Below are positions 1 to 7,661 of a DNA stretch of 7,661 nt, one piece after another; position 1 is the stretch's first letter, and each line of letters begins with the position of its first letter. The position numbers and the translations under genes were made by a program. The DNA lies in assembly GCA_903904545.1 (NCBI GenBank), contig CAIVDB010000116.1:1-7661 (forward strand), written 5' to 3'. Below the pieces are notes generated by a model, which was not told the origin of the DNA, did no database searches, and was given only the letters and a program-made list of their open reading frames with translations. Source of the stretch: an uncultured bacterium (GTDB lineage: Bacteria; Patescibacteria; JAEDAM01; Absconditabacterales; Absconditicoccaceae).

Positions 1-593
1 AAAATATCTTTATTTTTGATAACAAGGACAAAAAGACCAAAAGAAAGGAGGAGATTTACTAAAGAAGATGAAAATGTCCCATAAGAAGTAGATTCATAGA
101 AACCACTAGGGATAAGGGTGATAATAAGAGAAAGCAAAGAAAGTCCGCACCCAAATACTGTCAACATAGGGAACCAAATTTTTCTTCTAATACTCGCTAT
201 TCCCATCAAAAGGGAAAGAATACTCCATGCGAAAGCAACAAGAATATACAACAAAACACGAATACCTACAATTACACCGAAACTAAAAACAAAAGGGATC
301 CCAGTAAGTTGGACCAAGAAAGAAAAGACTCCAATAAGACCACTAATAACAAATACCCATCATAAAACGAGAAAAATTTTGGTAATCATAGGTCTAATTT
401 TAGAAATAATATCAACCACAAAAGAGGAAGCTAATATACTTTTGACAAGTGAAAATGATAAAAACCATTCTAAATAACTATATTTCATAAGCTTATGCAT
501 CCAGACATCGATTTTCATTTCCCAAAGATCCATATTATTTTCATCAAACATTTTTTTTGCCATACGGACATATTTTTCTTTTTGTTCTTTCAT
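1..593 (-). CDS. Multi-pass membrane protein of unknown function (C-terminus cut by window edge)
   Basis: I do not recognise the family. The start is the ATG at 591-593 and the frame stays open to the left edge (about 197 residues), provided the TGA at 360-362 is read as glycine; with the standard code it would end after 77 residues. Residues 1-45 are charged and contain several K, E, D and W residues, typical of a cytosolic N-terminal segment. After this come about four strongly hydrophobic stretches rich in L, I, V, F, G and S, separated by short loops with R or K (for example an IRRK loop about two thirds along). The last residues seen are hydrophobic followed by KNKDI, so the true C-terminus is probably close. 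A good promoter lies just upstream (626-653), so it may be transcribed independently of acetate kinase, which lies 176 bases upstream on the same strand. The opposite-strand frame over this region is low-complexity and looks like a shadow. Confidence 0.7.
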
Positions 594-625
594 TAAAAAT
601 ATATTTAGTGAGTAAAATTAGTATG

Positions 626-653
626 CTTATACAAATTGCTAGGCGTATTTCAA
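626..653 (-). promoter_or_regulatory. Probable sigma-70-type promoter of the membrane-protein gene
   Basis: On the minus strand there is TTGAAA (648-653), a 16-base spacer and TATAAG (626-631), matching 4/6 and 5/6 of the consensus boxes. Transcription would begin near 619, about 26 bases before the ATG. It is the best promoter match in the window, but no experimental support is available. Confidence 0.45.
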
Positions 654-668
654 GCAGTGAATGGTTGA

Positions 669-697
669 GTTAAGAACTAATAGTGAATAACTAATAG
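669..697. repeat. Degenerate 7-base tandem array (left arm)
   Basis: The cores TTAA, CTAA, TGAA and CTAA begin at 670, 677, 684 and 691, exactly seven bases apart. The unit is roughly ACTAATA. It is inverted relative to the array at 753-780, and the ten bases 671-680 are the exact reverse complement of 763-772. The two arms bracket the palindrome at 698-717. Confidence 0.6.
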
Positions 698-717
698 CCT
701 GCCTGCCGGTAGGTAGG
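698..717. repeat. GC-rich loopless palindrome, possible interspersed repeat
   Basis: CCTGCCTGCCGGTAGGTAGG folds back on itself completely if G-U pairs are allowed (two of ten pairs). It stands out as very GC-rich in an AT-rich intergenic stretch. No T-run follows it on the minus strand, so it is not a classical terminator for acetate kinase. On the plus strand a run of six T follows eight bases later, but no plus-strand gene ends here. I recall similar palindromes scattered in other candidate-phyla genomes, but this is from memory. Confidence 0.5.
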
Positions 718-752
718 TGTAGGAGTTTTTTATACAAAATATTCATTCTTCG

Positions 753-780
753 CTTTTAGTTTTTAGTTCTTAGTTTTTAA
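753..780. repeat. Degenerate 7-base tandem array overlapping the ackA stop codon
   Basis: The cores TTAG, TTAG, TTAG and TTAA begin at 756, 763, 770 and 777, exactly seven bases apart. Read on the minus strand the unit is CTAAAAA-like. The acetate kinase stop codon (770-772) and its last codons lie inside the array. Because seven is not a multiple of three, successive units place TAA in different reading frames. Confidence 0.6.
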
Positions 781-1963
781 CTAGAAAAGCCGTCTCTTCT
801 GCAATCATCAATTCTTCATTTGTAGGGATTACATAGATATGTACTTTGGAATCGGCCGTAGTAATGCAGCGTTCTTCTTTTATGCCAATATTTTTCTCTG
901 GGTCTAAAGTAGATCCAAGTCGAGCCAATCTTTGTAAAAGAATCTCTCTTACGGGCTCTGATCTTTCCATCACCCCTGCAGTCAAGACAATTGCATCTAC
1001 CCCGTTCATCAACGCAACATAAGCGCCAATATGCTGGACTAAACTATCAATATACATATCCAAAGTAATAGTGCATCTCTCATCCCCTGCTCTCCATCCA
1101 GCCAAGATATCTCTCAAGTCACTTGATTTTTCAGATACACCAAAAAGCCCAGATTTTTTATTAAGTAAAACTTCCATTGCTTCAGGACTAATTCATTCTT
1201 TTTTCATCAATAATGTAATTACTCCTGGATCAATATCTCCTGATCTTGTACCCATCATCAAGCCTCCCAAGGGAGTCATTCCCATAGACGTCTCCATCAC
1301 TTTCCCATCTTGGATAGCAGCCAAACTTGCTCCATTTCCTATATGACACGTGATAACTTTTGTTTCCTTATCAGAACGTTTGAAGAGTTCTACTCGTTTT
1401 CTATATACATATTCATGGGATGTACCGTGAAATCCATATCTTCTCACTCTATATTTCTCATAATATTCATAAGGAATTGGATACAAATAATGAGCGGGAC
1501 TCATCGTCTGATGAAAGGCTGTATCAAAGACAGCTACTTGAGGAATTTGGGGAGCTAAAGCAGTACATACAGTCATGCCAGCAAGATTTGCAGGATTATG
1601 CAAAGGCGCCAAGTCAATACATTCACGCACACGTTGAACCACTTCATCCGTAATAATCACTGCTTGCTGAAAGTATTCTCCCCCATGAACAACTCTGTGT
1701 CCTATTGCTCAGAGATCGTCTAAAGAAGAAAGTATCTGAAGTTCAGGTCACGTTAGAGTTGCAAACATCAGATGAACAGCATCTTCATGGTTAGCGAGAT
1801 GTTGATCGACATGATAGGATTGTCCTTGAAATGAATAATCAAAAAAAGATCACTCCATACCAATCTTTTCCATAATACCTTTACATCGAACCTCCGTAGT
1901 AACCATATCGAAGACTTGGAATTTCAAAGACGAGCTTCATAAATTAAGTACCAAAATTTTCAT
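770..1963 (-). CDS. ackA: Acetate kinase
   Basis: Catalyses acetate + ATP <-> acetyl phosphate + ADP in the cytosol. It usually acts with phosphotransacetylase to make ATP, but no pta gene is visible nearby. The length, 397 residues, is normal for the family. It is continuous only if five TGA codons (1193-1195, 1709-1711, 1748-1750, 1850-1852, 1937-1939) are read as glycine; the last gives the N-x-GSSS motif at residues 7-12. Also visible are GHRVVHGG (88-95), RRYGFHGTSH with the catalytic His near 179, HIGNGASLAA, a GGLMMGTRSGDIDPG loop and TNEEL near the C-terminus. Three CGA codons (residues 26, 190, 348) probably encode Trp. One oddity is VMER where the family normally has IGEN after TAG; its Arg codon is AGA, so recoding does not explain it. 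The start is the ATG before KILVLN, with no Shine-Dalgarno sequence. Confidence 0.96.
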
Positions 1964-2001
1964 GAGTAATTACAAAAAGAAGAATAAAATACATAAAAAA
2001 G

Positions 2002-2029
2002 AGTGTAGGTATTTCCGATAGTTTTTCAA
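2002..2029 (-). promoter_or_regulatory. Possible ackA promoter
   Basis: The minus strand reads TTGAAA (2024-2029), 16 bases, then TACACT (2002-2007), each box matching 4/6 of consensus. The distance to the ackA ATG is about 39 bases. It lies in the 167-base divergent gap with metG. Weak by sequence alone. Confidence 0.3.
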
Positions 2030-2069
2030 TTACAAAAACGAAAAAGAACGAGAAACTTGCTTTTTATAC

Positions 2070-2098
2070 TTGAAAAGTAAATAACAAATCACTAGGAT
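2070..2098 (+). promoter_or_regulatory. Possible metG promoter
   Basis: TTGAAA (2070-2075), a 17-base spacer, then TAGGAT (2093-2098), 4/6 matches in each box. The initiation point would be about 25 bases before the metG ATG. A TATACT at 2065-2070 is an alternative -10 box but has no -35 partner. Confidence 0.3.
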
Positions 2099-2130
2099 AG
2101 AGCTCTATTTATCACGAACCAAAACGCGAC

Positions 2131-3693
2131 ATGAATAAGAAATTCTACATTACTACAGCGATCGCATACACCAATGCAAAACCTCATGCTGGACATGCAC
2201 TTGAAATCATCCAAGCAGATGCACTTGCAAGATTTTACAGATTTTTGGGGTATGATGTAACATTCCAGACAGGTACCGATGACCATGGGATGAAAAATCG
2301 AAACTCTGCAAAAGAAGCAAATATGGATGTCAAAACATTCGTAGATATGAATTCTCAGGCATTTACTGATATGTACAAACAATTGTCTATTTCTTATGAT
2401 ACTTTTATCCAAACCTCTGATCAAGAGATCCATTATCCATGAGCACAATTGATGTGGAATAAATTAGTCGAAGCAGGAGATATTTATAAAAAATCATATA
2501 AAGGACTCTATTGTATAGGATGTGAAGCGCTGAAACTAGAAAAAGATTTAGTCGACGGTAAATGTCCTGACCATGCCACAAGTACATTACAGGAAATAGA
2601 AGAAGAAAATTATTTTTTTAAATTATCCAAATATAGAGACGAAGTAAGTAGACTCATCGAGACAAATGAATACAAGATAGAACCAGAAGTAAGAAAAAAT
2701 GAAATTCTTGAATTCCTCAAAAAAGCTGAAGATGTGAGTTTCTCCAGACAAAAAGCAAAAATGCCATGGGGAATCCCTGTACCCGGAGACGACGAACATG
2801 TGATGTATGTCCGATGTGATGCCCTTACTAATTATCTTACAGGACAAGGATTTGGAAGGAATGATGAATGGCAAAAAGTCTGGCCAGCAGATATTCATGT
2901 CATAGGAAAAGATATTTTGAGGTTTCACGCTGCCTTCTGGCCAGCAATGTTGATCTCTGCGAAATTAACACTTCCTAAGACATTATTAGCTCATGGTCAT
3001 CTCACACTCAATGGATCCAAGATGAGTAAATCTACAGGAAATGTACTCGATCCAGAAGAAGTTATAACAAAATACGGAAGAGATCCTTTTGTTTTCAATC
3101 TTTTATACGATGTCTCACTCAATGCTGATGGGGATTTTTCACCAGAAAGATTAGGAAATATCTACAATAGTATGCTTATTGGAGGACGAGGAAATTTGGT
3201 AAATAGAGTTGTTAGCCTTTGTAGTAAATATGGAATCACCCAAGGGAAGACAGATGAAACAAGACTCCAAGAACGAAATATTACAGATCCAGAAGTTGCT
3301 TTCGATAAGCGATATACAAGTATAGAGTCTAAATATCTCACAACATTTGCTATCCAAACATATTTACAAGATCGATATAAACTTGTCCAAAGAGCAAATG
3401 AATACATCACCAAATCCGAACCACGAAAAAAATACAAAGATGAATCTACAAAACAAGAAGCGATTGAAGATCTTCAATTTCTTCTCTATATTGTAAAAAA
3501 CTTAGCAATAGTATCTGCTCCCTTCCTCGTAGAATGATTTGAAAAAATCAAGACGATTCTGGGAATGCCAGAGCTCCAAGCTATCGACACTAGTAAGAAC
3601 TTGACAGATGATAGCATCAAAACAGCACTTGATATGAAAGAATTTACAGTAAACATAACTCCAGAAATCATCTATCAAAAAATCGAAGAATAA
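2131..3693 (+). CDS. metG: Methionyl-tRNA synthetase
   Basis: Charges tRNA(Met) with methionine using ATP. Class I signatures are visible: HAGH (residues 19-22, the HIGH motif) in an N-terminal Rossmann fold, and KMSKS (297-301). A zinc knuckle is formed by C128, C131, C145 and H148 (CxxC...CPxH). An anticodon-binding helical domain follows. The total is 520 residues with no C-terminal EMAP-type tRNA-binding domain, so this is the short form. TGA at 2440-2442 (residue 104) and 3535-3537 (residue 469) must be read through as glycine; the first lies in a segment where relatives have Gly before the AQLMW-like helix. Seven CGA codons occur (residues 57, 228, 353, 382, 394, 415, 432). Residue 228 is the Trp of the family's YVWxDAL motif, lining the methionine pocket, and residue 432 is the Trp of the C-domain P-W motif, so CGA probably means Trp. 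The TAA stop is followed by the hairpin at 3706. Confidence 0.97.
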
Positions 3694-3705
3694 TTTTTAG
3701 ATAAG

Positions 3706-3787
3706 AAAAAAATATCAAGAAAGAGCTTACTTGTTGTAAGGAACGGTTTAAAACCGTTCCCTACGAAGCTGACTTGATATTTTTTTT
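3706..3787. terminator. Bidirectional nested hairpin terminator with embedded palindrome
   Basis: A 14-bp perfect outer stem pairs 3706-3719 (seven A then TATCAAG) with 3773-3786. It ends in poly-A on one side and poly-T on the other, so it can act on both strands. Inside it, AGCTT (3724-3728) pairs with AAGCT (3766-3770). At the centre, GGAACGGTTT (3740-3749) pairs with AAACCGTTCC (3751-3760), with further near-pairing of the flanking bases. It lies between the convergent ends of metG and the small acidic gene, whose stop codon (3786-3788) overlaps it. The central palindrome resembles an interspersed repeat rather than a plain terminator. Confidence 0.75.
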
Positions 3788-3995
3788 ATTCTTCTCCTTT
3801 TTGAATTTCCAAAATTCCATCGAAAGCTTGAAGTACTTCCTCCATAAATTCAGGATCTTTATCGAGTCCTTCTTCTTTGATCAGCTCCATGACTCGATTT
3901 TTCTTCTGCTCTGCAGCTCTCATTTTCTCAATCTCCTCAGCATCTACTACCGCCATATCAAGGTCTTCTTCTAGGACAAAATCATCATCAGCCAT
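3786..3995 (-). CDS. Small acidic protein of unknown function
   Basis: A 69-residue protein that I do not recognise. The start ATG (3993-3995) is followed by a very acidic stretch (MADDDFVLEEDLDM). A predicted charged helix, about residues 20-45, carries E, K, R and Q. The C-terminal part contains KEEGLDKDPEFMEEV and ends KGEE. There are no Cys residues, signal peptide or membrane segment. A CGA codon at residue 34 would be Trp under the recoding proposed here. It lies 59 bases downstream of S-adenosylhomocysteinase on the same strand, with only a seven-base repeat array between, so the two are probably co-transcribed and end at the shared hairpin. Support for it being a real gene comes from its position, the terminator placed exactly at its stop, and non-random acidic composition. 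Its role cannot be inferred. Confidence 0.7.
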   Translation of the reverse strand: MADDDFVLEEDLDMAVVDAEEIEKMRAAEQKKNRVMELIKEEGLDKDPEFMEEVLQAFDGILEIQKGEE

Positions 3996-4022
3996 CAGTA
4001 CACACTAAAGAAATAAAACTCA

Positions 4023-4057
4023 TTCACTAAACATTAAACATTACGCATTAAAAATTA
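4023..4057. repeat. 7-base tandem array overlapping the ahcY stop codon
   Basis: ACTA at 4026 and ATTA at 4033, 4040, 4047 and 4054 are exactly seven bases apart, five units in all, with a unit near ACATTAA on the plus strand (TTAATGT on the minus). The ahcY stop codon (TAA at 4055-4057) is part of the terminal unit. The array fills most of the gap before the small acidic gene. Confidence 0.65.
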
Positions 4058-5362
4058 ATAACGATAATGTTCAGCCTTATACGGACCGTCAACCGATACG
4101 CCAATATAGTCAGCCTGTTCTTTTGTGAGAGTTTCTAGATGAGCACCAATTTTTTCTAGATGCAATCTTGCAACTTTTTCATCAAGATGCTTAGGCAACA
4201 TATAGACTTTATTTTCATAATTTTCTGAACGGAGTCGTAATTCAAGTTGAGCAAGTGTCTGATTGGTAAATGAACTCGACATCACAAATGAAGGATGCCC
4301 TGTTGCACATCCAAGGTTAATCAATCTTCCTTCAGCTAAGATGATGACGTCCTTTCCATTGATTGTGTATTTGTCTACTTGAGGCTTGATAGTAATCTTA
4401 GTATTTCCGTAATTGGTATTCAATCGTGCCATATCGATCTCATTATCAAAATGTCCAATATTACAGACCACTGCCTTATCTTTCATGACCATAAAATGTT
4501 CACCTCTCACGATATCTAGATTTCCTGTCGCAGTCACGATGATATCTGCTTGAGGAACCGCTTCTTGCATAGTCAAAACTTCATATCCTTCCATCGCAGC
4601 TTGTAAGGCACAGATTGGATCTATTTCGGTCACAAGGACTCTCATATGAGCATTTTTCAATGCTTCTGCAGAACCTTTTCCTACATCACCAAATCCAGCA
4701 ACAAGACCAACTTTCCCTGCGAGCATCAAATCAGTCGCTCTTCTAATTCCATCAACTAATGATTCTCTACATCCATATTTATTATCAAATTTTGATTTCG
4801 TTACAGAATCATTTACATTGATCGCTGGCAAAGGCAATGTTCCAGCCTTCATTCTTTCGTACAATCTGTGTACTCCTGTTGTCGTTTCTTCTGATACTCA
4901 TTTGATTCCAGCAACTAATTGAGGATACTGGTCCAAAACCATATTGGTCAAATCACCTCCATCGTCCAAAATCATATTGAGCGGTTCTTTGTTTGGTCCA
5001 AAAAACAATGTTTGTTCGATACATCGATTAAATTCTTCTTCATTCATTCCCTTCCATGCATAGACTGGTACTCCTGCTGCCGCAATCGCAGCCGCTGCAT
5101 GATCTTGGGTAGAGAAAATATTACAGCTTGACCACTGAACTTGAGCTCCTAGAGTAACCAAAGTCTCGATCAATACTGCTGTCTGGATAGTCATATGGAG
5201 ACATCCTGCAATCCTTGCTCCTGCAAGCGGTTGAGTAGGCCCATACTCTTTTCTCAATGCCATCAAACCTGGCATTTCGGCTTCAGCAAGGTCGATTTCC
5301 TTCCTTCCTCGTTCAGCCAAGCTAATATCTTTGACCTTGTATGCACCTTCTTTAAAATCCAT
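4055..5362 (-). CDS. ahcY: S-adenosylhomocysteinase (adenosylhomocysteine hydrolase)
   Basis: Splits S-adenosylhomocysteine into homocysteine and adenosine using tightly bound NAD, relieving product inhibition of methyltransferases. The 435 residues are close to the compact animal form. Visible motifs include [13 protein letters not shown] (catalytic His near 56), [45 protein letters not shown] (catalytic Lys and Asp), the NAD loop [16 protein letters not shown] and a C-terminal HYRY. The TGA at 4898-4900 (residue 155) falls on the conserved Gly before VSEETTTG. All four CGA codons (residues 18, 113, 313, 376) lie where the family, including the human enzyme, has Trp: xWGRK, xWCIEQT, WLN and ELW. 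Conserved Arg residues use AGA, AGG or CGT. I chose the ATG at 5360-5362; an in-frame ATG at 5422 would add 20 hydrophobic residues that the family lacks. A 7-base array overlaps the stop. Confidence 0.97.
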
Positions 5363-5598
5363 TTTCTTCAATAAAAAAAATAAAATCGGATGAAATATAC
5401 GAAAAGGCAAAGAAATTGCCACACAAAAAAGGATCTACAACACTATACAATCACAAGAAAATATATATAATATTGACTAGATATATTCTCATCCATTTTG
5501 GGAAACAAGAGAACGCTTGCCGTTGAAAAAAAGAAGTAAATACATAGAAAGACAAAACCTATCAAAGAAATGAATTTTATTACATAGCAAAAAAACCA
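5363..5598. promoter_or_regulatory. Divergent intergenic region between ahcY and trxB
   Basis: This 236-base AT-rich gap must hold the promoters of both divergent genes. On the minus strand TATAGT (5442-5447) is a plausible -10 box for ahcY, with no convincing -35. On the plus strand a perfect TATAAT (5466-5471) could serve trxB, leaving a leader of about 120 bases, again without a good -35. A five-pair hairpin (GGCAA at 5406-5410, TTGCC at 5416-5420) lies in the ahcY leader. I recognise no riboswitch, including the S-adenosylhomocysteine type, and no gene. Confidence 0.4.
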
Positions 5599-6537
5599 AT
5601 GGAAAACGTAGTGATTATAGGATCAGGACCAGCAGGTCATACCGCGGCTATCTATACCGCGAGAGCTAATCTCAAGCCTTTGATGTTCGAAGGATTTATG
5701 GCAGGAGGTATCGCTGCAGGGGGACAACTAACTACCACGACCGTTGTCGAAAATTTCCCAGGATTCCCGACTGGGATCGACGGATATGAACTCATGAGTA
5801 ATATGAGACAACAAAGCATCAATTCTTGAACAAGGATAGAGACCAAAACGGTGGACCGTGTAGACCTCAGTCAGCGTCCTTTCAAAGTCTATGTAGGAGA
5901 AGACGTAATAGAAACACAGTCACTTATCCTGGCTACGGGAGCTACTGCCAAACGTCTCGGCATACCAGGAGAAAAAACTTTCTGGCAGAAAGGAATCTCG
6001 GCTTGTGCTATCTGTGACGGAGGACTTCCTATGTTTAGAGGCAAACCTATCGTCGTCATCGGTGGAGGTGATGTAGCAGCTGAAGAGGCTTTACATCTTA
6101 CTCACTTTGCATCACACGTTACCCTGCTCGTCAGAAGAGATGTATTGAGAGCATCCAAAGCCATGCAAGAGAAATTGATGAATAATGAAAAGGTTACCAT
6201 CATGCGATATACCGAAGCCGTCGAAGCATTGGGAGATCAATTCCTCACAGAACTCAAAGTCATCAATAATCAAACCCAAGAGACGCAAGTCCTTGAAGTA
6301 GCAGGACTCTTCTACGCAATTGGGCACACTCCAAACACTGCCTTCTTAGAAAATCAAGTAGCTACTGATGAAACAGGGTATATTCTGACCACTCCTGGCA
6401 CTGCAAAGACAAATATCGAAGGCGTCTTCGCTGCAGGCGATGTACAAGATAGAAAATATAGACAAGCAATTACGTCTGCCGGTAGTGGATGTATGGCAGC
6501 ATTAGAAGCAGAAGCGTATTTAAGCGAAAATAAATAG
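5599..6537 (+). CDS. trxB: Thioredoxin reductase (NADPH)
   Basis: An FAD flavoenzyme that passes electrons from NADPH to thioredoxin, encoded here just downstream. The 312 residues are typical of the low-molecular-weight bacterial type. The N-terminal FAD loop is GSGPAG (about 8-13). The redox pair is C136 and C139 in CAICDG. The NADPH loop is GGGDVA, followed by [10 protein letters not shown], the pattern expected for NADPH rather than NADH. The second FAD motif [10 protein letters not shown] lies near the end. The TGA at 5827-5829 (residue 77) must be glycine, where relatives commonly have a Gly in the F-G-x segment; with the standard code the gene would break into two. CGA at 6205-6207 (residue 203) sits where many relatives have the W of a VxWNT-like strand. 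The start ATG lies three residues before VVIIGSG and has no Shine-Dalgarno. The TAG stop (6535-6537) opens a seven-base repeat array. Confidence 0.96.
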
Positions 6538-6576
6538 AAGATCTTAGACGGGAGATGTTGGATCTTAGATTTAGTT
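6535..6576. repeat. Degenerate 7-base array left of the four-helix-bundle gene
   Basis: Consecutive heptamers beginning at 6535 (TAGAAGA), 6542 (TCTTAGA), 6549, 6556, 6563 (TCTTAGA) and 6570 keep an AGA/GGA-type ending for five units before decaying. The orientation is opposite to the array at 6946-7015: GATCTTAGA (6540-6548, 6561-6569) is the exact reverse complement of 6995-7003. It includes the trxB stop codon. Confidence 0.6.
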
Positions 6577-6591
6577 ACTAAGTAAACAAGA

Positions 6592-6957
6592 ATGGAAACC
6601 AATTATCAAAAGTTAAGTGTTCGACAAAAGGCAATGGACTTGACTCAAGAGATTTATTTCATTACAGAAAGGTTCCCAGGCAAAGAAATATATGGCATCA
6701 TCGCGCAAATGAGAAGGAGTGCAATATCTATTCCCTCAAACATTGCAGAAGGAAATGAAAGAAATACCAAGAAAGAACATATAAACTTCTTATTTATCGC
6801 AAAATGATCTACAGCAGAACTAGAAACACAAATAATATTATCTCAAAGACTGTGATTTATGAATAGACAAGAAGAACAAAACCTTTTGGAAAGAATAAGT
6901 GAGATTCTAAGAATGTTATCTGGCCTCATCTCTTCACTTAAAAAGTCTAACATCTAA
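6592..6957 (+). CDS. Four-helix-bundle protein, 23S rRNA intervening-sequence (S23) family
   Basis: A small cytosolic helical protein (121 residues) of the family first noticed inside 23S rRNA intervening sequences and related to the Avd accessory proteins of diversity-generating retroelements. Its molecular function is unsettled. The family pattern is clear: YQKLSV-x-QKAM at the N-terminus, MRRSAISIPSNIAEG in the middle, and the ELETQ helix. TGA at 6805-6807 (residue 72, the AKGS turn) and 6853-6855 (residue 88, the LG turn) both fall on conserved glycines; with the standard code only 71 residues would remain. CGA at 6622-6624 (residue 11) replaces the nearly invariant Trp of the VWQKA motif, supporting CGA as Trp. 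The gene separates trxB from trxA on the same strand. Its last codons and TAA stop are the first units of a seven-base repeat array, and an inverted array lies just upstream, suggesting a mobile or domesticated cassette. No rRNA sequence is nearby. Confidence 0.92.
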
Positions 6958-7015
6958 AATCTGAGGTCTAAAGTAAAAAATCTAAAATCTAAGCTCTAAG
7001 ATCTAATATCTATAA
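6946..7015. repeat. 7-base tandem array, ten units, right of the four-helix-bundle gene
   Basis: Ten successive heptamers from 6946: TCTAACA, TCTAAAA, TCTGAGG, TCTAAAG, TAAAAAA, TCTAAAA, TCTAAGC, TCTAAGA, TCTAATA, TCTATAA. The consensus is TCTAAAA with perfect seven-base phasing. It starts inside the last four codons of the four-helix-bundle gene and supplies its stop. Its last unit forms most of a TATAAT box at 7011-7016. This is the longest and clearest of the window's arrays. Confidence 0.8.
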
Positions 7016-7016
7016 T
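7011..7016 (+). promoter_or_regulatory. Possible -10 box for trxA at the edge of the repeat array
   Basis: A perfect TATAAT lies 41 bases before the trxA ATG, made from the last heptamer plus the next base. There is no good -35 (TCTAAG at 6988-6993 with a 17-base spacer). If used, trxA could be transcribed separately from the upstream genes. Confidence 0.3.
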
Positions 7017-7057
7017 CCCCTTCCCCCAATTCTTTTACTTTCTTACAATAACACACC

Positions 7058-7414
7058 ATGTCACTTATTCACATTGAAGGTCCTGAACATTTCGAGAAAG
7101 AAATAACTCAATTCGACGGACTTTGTATCGTAGATTTCTGGGCTGAACGATGTGGTCCATGTAGAATGCTCGGACCTATTATGGAAGAACTTGCAACGAT
7201 GTACGAAGGGAAACCTATCCGCATTGCCAAAGTCAATGTCGATGAAAATCCAGAACTCGCAGCACAATTCAACGTCTCCTCTATCCCTGTAGTATTCTTC
7301 CTTCAAGGAGAAAAAACAAGAGAAACGATCGTTGGAGTAAATCCTAAGACTGTCTACCAAGAAAGAATCGATGCATTCCTAGCTCAGCCAAGAGAAGAAA
7401 AAGCTGGAGAGTAG
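7058..7414 (+). CDS. trxA: Thioredoxin
   Basis: A small dithiol carrier that reduces disulfides in cytosolic proteins and is itself reduced by thioredoxin reductase (trxB, about 520 bases upstream on the same strand). The 118 residues are slightly longer than the usual 105-110 because of a charged tail ending EEKAGE. The fold markers are present: IVDFWAE with the buried Asp and W28 (TGG), the active site CGPC at C32-C35, KVNVDENPELA, and the cis-Pro in SSIPVVFF. The residue just before CGPC, nearly always Trp, is encoded here by CGA (7148-7150, residue 31), one of the clearest signs that CGA is read as Trp. Read literally as Arg it would give an RCGPC site that would be very unusual. The start ATG has no Shine-Dalgarno, and the gene ends at a strong terminator. 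Confidence 0.97.
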   Translation: MSLIHIEGPEHFEKEITQFDGLCIVDFWAERCGPCRMLGPIMEELATMYEGKPIRIAKVNVDENPELAAQFNVSSIPVVFFLQGEKTRETIVGVNPKTVYQERIDAFLAQPREEKAGE

Positions 7415-7432
7415 AAAATATTTCAAGTAATC

Positions 7433-7465
7433 AAAAAAGCTGGAGAAATAATCGCCAGCTTTTTT
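7433..7465. terminator. Bidirectional intrinsic terminator between trxA and the right-edge gene
   Basis: A perfect 11-bp stem pairs AAAAAAGCTGG (7433-7443) with CCAGCTTTTTT (7455-7465) around an 11-base loop. With poly-A and poly-T arms it can act on both strands. It lies between trxA and the minus-strand reading frame, whose TAA stop is at 7467-7469. A second copy of 13 bases of the left arm occurs at 7398-7410, inside the end of trxA. Confidence 0.8.
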
Positions 7466-7466
7466 A

Positions 7467-7661
7467 TTATAGCAAATTAATTATTCATTTTCCCAAGACC
7501 CTTGTAGTAAGAGTCCTAAAGGAAAAGTAATTAAATGACCCATTATTTGATACTTTATATACAAAGTATTGCTTATACTTTTTATAAAGAGATTTAAATC
7601 GCTTTTCTTTAATAAGAACAAGCACCGGGATTCCATTATATTTTGCATAGGAGATAGCTTT
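7467..7661 (-). CDS. C-terminal fragment of an unknown protein (runs off the right edge)
   Basis: From the right edge a frame of 64 codons runs leftward to a TAA at 7467-7469, provided the TGA at 7485-7487 is read as glycine (the standard code would end it six residues earlier). The visible part reads AISYAKYNGIPVLVLIKEK, then a lysine- and tyrosine-rich segment, then a more mixed tail ending GIINLL. A CGA at 7599-7601 would be Trp between KEK and FKSLYKKY. The A-x-x-x-G-I-P-V-L-V-L strand-like segment recalls Rossmann-like nucleotide-processing folds, but I would not assign a family from 64 residues. Its stop sits just beside the shared bidirectional terminator, which argues that it is a real gene. 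Confidence 0.55.

Follow-up and report, generated by a model that had tools for sequence, protein, structure and literature searches.

Tryptophan as the predicted meaning of CGA in a contig grouping with Absconditabacterales, with codon usage that suggests an advanced stage of reassignment

CGA and CGG were predicted with Codetta to encode tryptophan in Absconditabacteria (SR1) by Shulgina and Eddy (eLife 2021, PMC8629427), and the assignment was repeated for Absconditabacterales in 2026 (Nucleic Acids Res, PMC13092985). In the parts of the 2021 paper devoted to these codes, CGA stays below 37 per 10,000 codons in all species and CGG below 7 in all but one, the genomic GC content of the CGA/CGG clades is 0.26–0.38, and the changes are likened to earlier stages of reassignment; a single more advanced species, GCA_002791215.1, is given with CGA 30, CGG 24 and UGG 35. 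The same parts describe Anaerococcus and uncultivated Bacilli, in which CGG is read as tryptophan and CGA is presumed to remain arginine via tRNA-ICG, and state that a code can be established by experiment only. Here, we analyse a stretch of 7,661 nucleotides from an uncultured bacterium (contig CAIVDB010000116.1 of assembly GCA_903904545.1, positions 1 to 7,661 of the forward strand; hereafter the window), in which CGA is predicted to stand for tryptophan.

The code itself is not new, a prediction of it for this clade having been published in 2021. The window shares with the Absconditabacteria of that paper the clade, the codon, the new amino acid, UGA as glycine, a low GC content, an arginine written mostly AGA and Trp-type tRNA-UCG and tRNA-CCG, detected here in relatives; it differs in its CGA frequency, which reaches 89 per 10,000 codons against less than 37 in the paper, under different counting methods. 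With Anaerococcus and the Bacilli it has in common the transfer of a CGN-box arginine codon to tryptophan in low-GC bacteria, but in those groups only CGG is concerned, whereas CGA is the main new codon here. The relevant passages of PMC13092985 treat neither the stage of codon usage nor the tryptophanyl-tRNA synthetase (TrpRS) nor the lineage of the window, those of PMC10746230 do not refer to CGA, CGG or arginine, and a literature search turned up nothing more recent on how far the takeover has gone. The addition made here is a further lineage with an apparently advanced CGA shift.

We consider that CGA, often placed where relatives have TGG, would be read as tryptophan through a tRNA-UCG likely charged by the cell's TrpRS, with a probability of roughly 0.96 on comparative grounds. 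A recount over the nine open reading frames (ORFs) of the window gave 19 CGA, no CGG, 11 CGT, 2 CGC, 55 AGA, 9 AGG, 16 TGG and 13 TGA codons. The first two figures are those of an earlier note on this DNA, which had proposed the tryptophan reading; its residue positions were also correct, while the span that it gave for the phenomenon (2812 to 7150) proved too narrow, CGA sites reaching from 920 to 7601. Arginine is written AGA, AGG and CGT, as the note had it, and also CGC. At the conserved arginine columns of the window, we found AGA eight times, AGG once, a non-arginine codon twice and CGA never.

The sites were compared with the best one to five solved homologous chains per protein, the queries being translated with table 25, which puts arginine at CGA and biases the alignment against tryptophan. 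All four CGA codons of ahcY (S-adenosylhomocysteine hydrolase, TIGR00936, 4055..5362, minus strand, ATG at 5362), namely 18 (5309–5311), 113 (5024–5026), 313 (4424–4426) and 376 (4235–4237), face tryptophan in the four chains shown. The same holds in five of five chains for codon 31 of trxA (thioredoxin, PF00085, 7058..7414, plus strand; CGA at 7148–7150), which is the tryptophan of the WCGPC active site, and for codons 228 (2812) and 432 (3424) of metG (methionyl-tRNA synthetase, TIGR00398, 2131..3693, plus strand). Codon 11 (6622–6624) of the four-helix-bundle or 23S rRNA intervening-sequence protein (PF05635, TIGR02436, 6592..6957, plus strand) faces tryptophan in the sole chain found, 2gsc. 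Accordingly, eight of the nine tryptophan sites listed in the note have tryptophan in every chain shown; the ninth, codon 203 (6205–6207) of trxB (thioredoxin reductase, TIGR01292, 5599..6537, plus strand), is mixed in four solved chains (W, Y, Y, F) but is CGA in 14, TGG in 7 and tyrosine in 2 of 23 relatives. Nine was moreover an undercount: in relatives, metG 353 (3187) and 415 (3373) are, like metG 228 and 432, mostly TGG, CGA or CGG, 8 of 25 have TGG or CGA at metG 57 (2299), and codon 348 (920–922) of ackA (acetate kinase, PF00871, 770..1963, minus strand) is TGG in 15, CGA in 1, tyrosine in 2 and serine in 1 of 19. These four sites are predicted to be tryptophan within the clade only.

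The relatives in question are genomes reached through relatives of the window's metG, up to 24 per site (the metG counts also include G068), and 12 CGA sites, in metG, ackA, trxB and trxA, could be compared. Among the 253 codons found there, TGG accounts for 79, CGA for 69 and CGG for 3, and AGA, AGG, CGT and CGC for none, the remainder being led by leucine, valine and phenylalanine codons. At 35 AGA sites of the window, taken as a control, 460 of 719 relative codons encode arginine, one is TGG and none is CGA. TGG occurs in some relative at 8 of the 12 CGA sites versus 29 of 1322 other sites, and when 12 sites were drawn at random 100,000 times, neither the observed number of TGG sites nor that of TGG codons was ever reached, so that chance was rejected. 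The active-site codon trxA 31 is CGA in 8 and TGG in 6 of 14 relatives, and ahcY 18 is TGG in a fragment from G006.

This exchange extends well beyond the window. We examined the loci of IleS, ValS, MetG, AckA, TrxB and TrpS, together with the pieces of G003, in 24 clade genomes, a column being called conserved when at least 75% of at least three alignments to standard-code genomes agreed. On such columns, 118 of 146 CGA codons lie on tryptophan, 22 on tyrosine, 6 on phenylalanine and none on arginine. CGG (n = 34) lies on tryptophan 31 times and once each on arginine, glutamine and tyrosine; TGG lies on tryptophan in 294 of 310 cases and AGA on arginine in 459 of 525. Seen from the other side, conserved arginine columns of the clade hold no CGA and one CGG. 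In outgroups, CGA falls on arginine columns in G039 (2), G054 (4), G060 (6, plus one on lysine) and G112 (7, plus one on lysine) and on none in G053, figures from a count in which some genomes entered twice, the search for IleS having led to the ValS locus in several of them. A second comparison used 254 ORF pairs, from ORFs of at least 150 amino acids in 245–400 kb of each of five genomes and window ORFs of at least 110 amino acids. CGA, aligned 786 times, faces TGG 222 times, CGG 73 times and CGA 290 times (each CGA–CGA pair being counted twice); AGA, aligned 4014 times, faces an arginine codon 2870 times, CGA 7 times, CGG 3 times and TGG never. CGC gave a less uniform picture in these data: on conserved columns of the 24 genomes, 11 of 24 lie on glutamine and 8 on arginine, and 134 of 229 face arginine in the ORF comparison, the numbers being small.

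The note had further called for a tRNA with a UCG anticodon and tryptophan identity features. With tRNAs typed by published criteria (tryptophan: G73 and no A20), tRNA-UCG is Trp-like in all 24 clade genomes (26 genes). Outside the clade, 11 genomes were parsed, of which 10 have an Arg-like tRNA-UCG and one, G068, has one of neither type; these genomes were drawn from 30 returned loci (matches existing in 124 of 145 genomes), G051, G107 and G136 being left out because ARAGORN made no tRNA-UCG call. tRNA-CCG is Trp-like in all 20 genes parsed from 25 genomes searched, although the acceptor stem pairs poorly in the G029 parse; no match was obtained in G006 and G068, and the matches in G004, G022 and G160 were assigned to other tRNAs on inspection of the matching letters. 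The pieces of G003 hold GCG, CCT, TCG and CCG tRNAs; no ACG tRNA is found among the 35 tRNAs of this incomplete set, in which TCT is unseen too, and this fits the suggested lack of an inosine tRNA-Arg. One TrpRS above the family cut-off occurs in 23 of the 24 clade genomes, and two occur in G022. In its alignment, 23 columns have a residue common to at least 85% of the 24 clade sequences and absent in four outgroups, and none of the 23 could be linked to anticodon recognition. As to the origin of tRNA-UCG, its best match to another tRNA within G003 reaches 68% (Gln-CTG), and no candidate stands out.

The match of columns, the interchange of TGG, CGA and CGG and the Trp-type tRNA-UCG and tRNA-CCG of relatives together lead us to predict that CGA is tryptophan. 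Under this reading, the window's own genome would carry the same tRNA-UCG and tRNA-CCG as its relatives, the TrpRS would charge tRNAs with CCA, UCG and CCG anticodons, and the ribosome would insert tryptophan at CGA.

Three further observations were made on tRNA genes. Two identical tRNA-UCG genes lie 288 bases apart in G006 (G006:C8:11130 and 11418) and two are present in G002 (C68, C177); extra copies may go with heavier use of CGA. The tRNA-UCG of G068 (G068:C6:52834–52863, L187) combines A73 with U20, and this genome is nearly devoid of CGA (0 per 10,000 in the conserved-column genes, one codon in an earlier count). Finally, a tRNA-like gene adjoins a tRNA-Thr in G003 (G003:C17:5789–5860, L111); ARAGORN calls it Leu(taa), but its length leaves no room for a long variable arm, and its anticodon loop is unusual.

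Several points weigh against reading CGA as tryptophan, and some of them concern the sampling. No tRNA gene was found in the window, and the tRNA evidence comes from relatives. Of the 24 clade genomes, thirteen owe their place on the list to a tRNA-UCG that looked Trp-like; the other eleven entered as metG or trxA relatives, and among them the tRNA-UCG of G003 and short matches of G009 and G011 had been seen beforehand. Other points concern the sites. In four of the 12 compared, TGG is absent from relatives: metG 382 (3274) and 394 (3310), which are variable, ackA 26 (1886–1888), where relatives have V 7, L 6, I 2, N 2, M 1 and E 1, and ackA 190 (1394–1396), where they have L 10, A 6, I 2 and CGA 1. 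Solved chains shown for ackA (four) carry leucine at 26 and alanine at 190, and those shown for the predicted clade-specific sites carry leucine or isoleucine (metG 353), isoleucine (metG 415), leucine, glutamine or alanine (metG 57) and, in four chains, phenylalanine or glycine (ackA 348), which is contrary or neutral. CGA also falls on conserved tyrosine columns more often than TGG does (22/146 versus 6/310), largely because of one ValS column at which the clade has CGA 13, TGG 1, CGG 1, tyrosine 2, phenylalanine 1 and histidine 1. Lastly, G024, the nearest genome by metG, has few CGA (233, with 40 CGG and 1008 TGG in ORFs of at least 150 amino acids, from a partial genome of 245–400 kb like those counted below), and 9 of the 786 aligned CGA codons of the ORF comparison face arginine codons.

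These nine pairings are what one would expect if CGA were ambiguous, mostly tryptophan with a minority of arginine, either because a tRNA-Arg competed with tRNA-UCG(Trp) or because the arginyl-tRNA synthetase charged a part of the latter; G003 indeed keeps a tRNA-GCG that looks like an arginine tRNA on inspection (the GG of the D-loop is followed by A, and position 73 is A). Such pairings nevertheless make up roughly 1% of the total and could be noise in the alignments, TGG itself facing arginine codons in 3 of 919 cases, and a fraction of arginine should be costly at the thioredoxin active site, where CGA stands in the window and in 8 of 14 relatives. We regard ambiguity as very unlikely. That CGA simply stays arginine, its tryptophan matches being due to chance or alignment error, is in line with NCBI table 25, labelled SR1 and Gracilibacteria, which alters TGA only; NCBI may since list a separate table for the CGA/CGG tryptophan code. 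Moreover, R stands at several tryptophan columns in two database MetG proteins, P0005 and P0021 (MYVRCDAL versus MYVWCDAL in P0004), but this is expected wherever CGA or CGG has been translated as arginine. Arginine would have to be reconciled with the complete absence of AGA, AGG, CGT and CGC among the 253 relative codons, with random draws that never matched the TGG count and with 146 conserved columns none of which is arginine; the table 25 reading was rejected on the conserved columns, the comparison of sites with relatives and the ORF exchange, and we hold it to be extremely improbable. Restoration of tryptophan codons by C-to-U editing of RNA, by which plant organelles turn CGG into UGG, would account for the CGG at tryptophan columns in relatives. 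On CGA, however, it would yield UGA, a glycine (or stop) codon in this organism, and would leave CGA unexplained, and it has to contend with the Trp-type tRNA-UCG genes of relatives; editing was rejected because CGA would turn into UGA, and we consider its probability practically negligible.

If CGA is indeed tryptophan, its frequency is of interest. In the six window genes with a family match, CGA occurs 17 times, TGG 10 times and CGG never among 1903 codons, that is 89, 53 and 0 per 10,000. These rates are not strictly comparable with those of PMC8629427, which counts Pfam-aligned codons where we used few genes or ORFs of partial genomes, but the ratio is suggestive of a later stage than that given there for most species. 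In long ORFs of relatives, CGA, CGG and TGG number 560, 63 and 521 in G008, 292, 263 and 367 in G003, 371, 134 and 389 in G006, and 324, 48 and 342 in G007. CGA and CGG together thus exceed TGG in these four of the five sampled relatives, and CGA alone does so in one. The opposite extreme is G016, with 9 CGA and 178 TGG per 10,000 in the conserved-column genes. The window GC content is 0.369 (for the contig, not the genome), within the low range published for CGA/CGG clades. The many CGA and lack of CGG in the window may be explained by a path from TGG through CGG to CGA, two transitions each of which would be silent under the new code, together with a low GC content, AT pressure favouring CGA. 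On balance, although with some reserve, we favour the view that the early stage has been passed, that CGA is now the main tryptophan codon of this organism ahead of UGG and that CGG has been drained by AT pressure, the lineage of G003 having kept CGG about equal to CGA. The clade would then form a graded series, with G016, where UGG is used almost exclusively, at one end, G024, where UGG still prevails, in between, and genomes dominated by CGA/CGG at the other end, under a single TrpRS accepting CCA, UCG and CCG anticodons.

The clade, which the note had given as Absconditabacteria, was placed through one gene, MetG, taxid 221235 being the one that contains the order Absconditabacterales. In the MetG tree, the window joins G024, P0004 and P0005 (100/100); a fork of nine rows, weakly supported (84/57), adds three proteins named Candidatus Absconditabacterales, and a fork of 30 rows (99/99) takes in, as well, the one protein named candidate division SR1, the standard-code rows used falling outside. 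On this sequence basis the contig groups with SR1/Absconditabacterales, in agreement with the note. The in-frame TGA codons point in the same direction as the published code, since 93 of 160 relative codons at eight window TGA sites encode glycine. The ackA and trxB of the window are nearest to other clade genomes: among those searched, MetG is closest to G024 (70%), AckA to G008 (74%) and TrxB to G025 (77%), and metG may have moved between lineages. G018 is a possible member of Absconditabacteria. This genome has CGA on tryptophan columns in 12 of 12 cases, yet the tree puts its MetG outside the clade, together with that of G023; among the 120 matches listed for its TrpRS are SR1- or Absconditabacterales-named proteins at 58–61% and a Gracilibacteria-named one at 58%.

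Besides the six genes with a family match, the window contains three small or partial ORFs without one. Two of these carry the remaining CGA codons, a small orphan ORF at 3786..3995 on the minus strand (codon 34, 3894–3896) and a partial orphan ORF at 7467..7661 on the minus strand (codon 21 of the open fragment, 7599–7601). The gene of the four-helix-bundle protein separates trxB from trxA. In G008 and G003 there is no room for it, since only about 110 bases lie between the matches to these two genes. In ahcY, CGA occupies four of the six tryptophan sites. Within the clade this gene was found in one of the 24 genomes only, as two G006 fragments (84% over 69 residues and 70% over 27 residues; L336, L337), which suggests that it was taken up from elsewhere; a 41% match was also obtained in the outgroup G053.

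Translation of such genomes with table 25 would put arginine at tryptophan sites, including the active site of thioredoxin, and would lead to errors at those residues in annotation, searches and structure models. Lineages in which CGA is about as frequent as UGG would be the best material for confirmation by peptides and for the study of a sense-codon takeover. If the graded series that we favour is correct, such a takeover would be observable step by step within a single clade.

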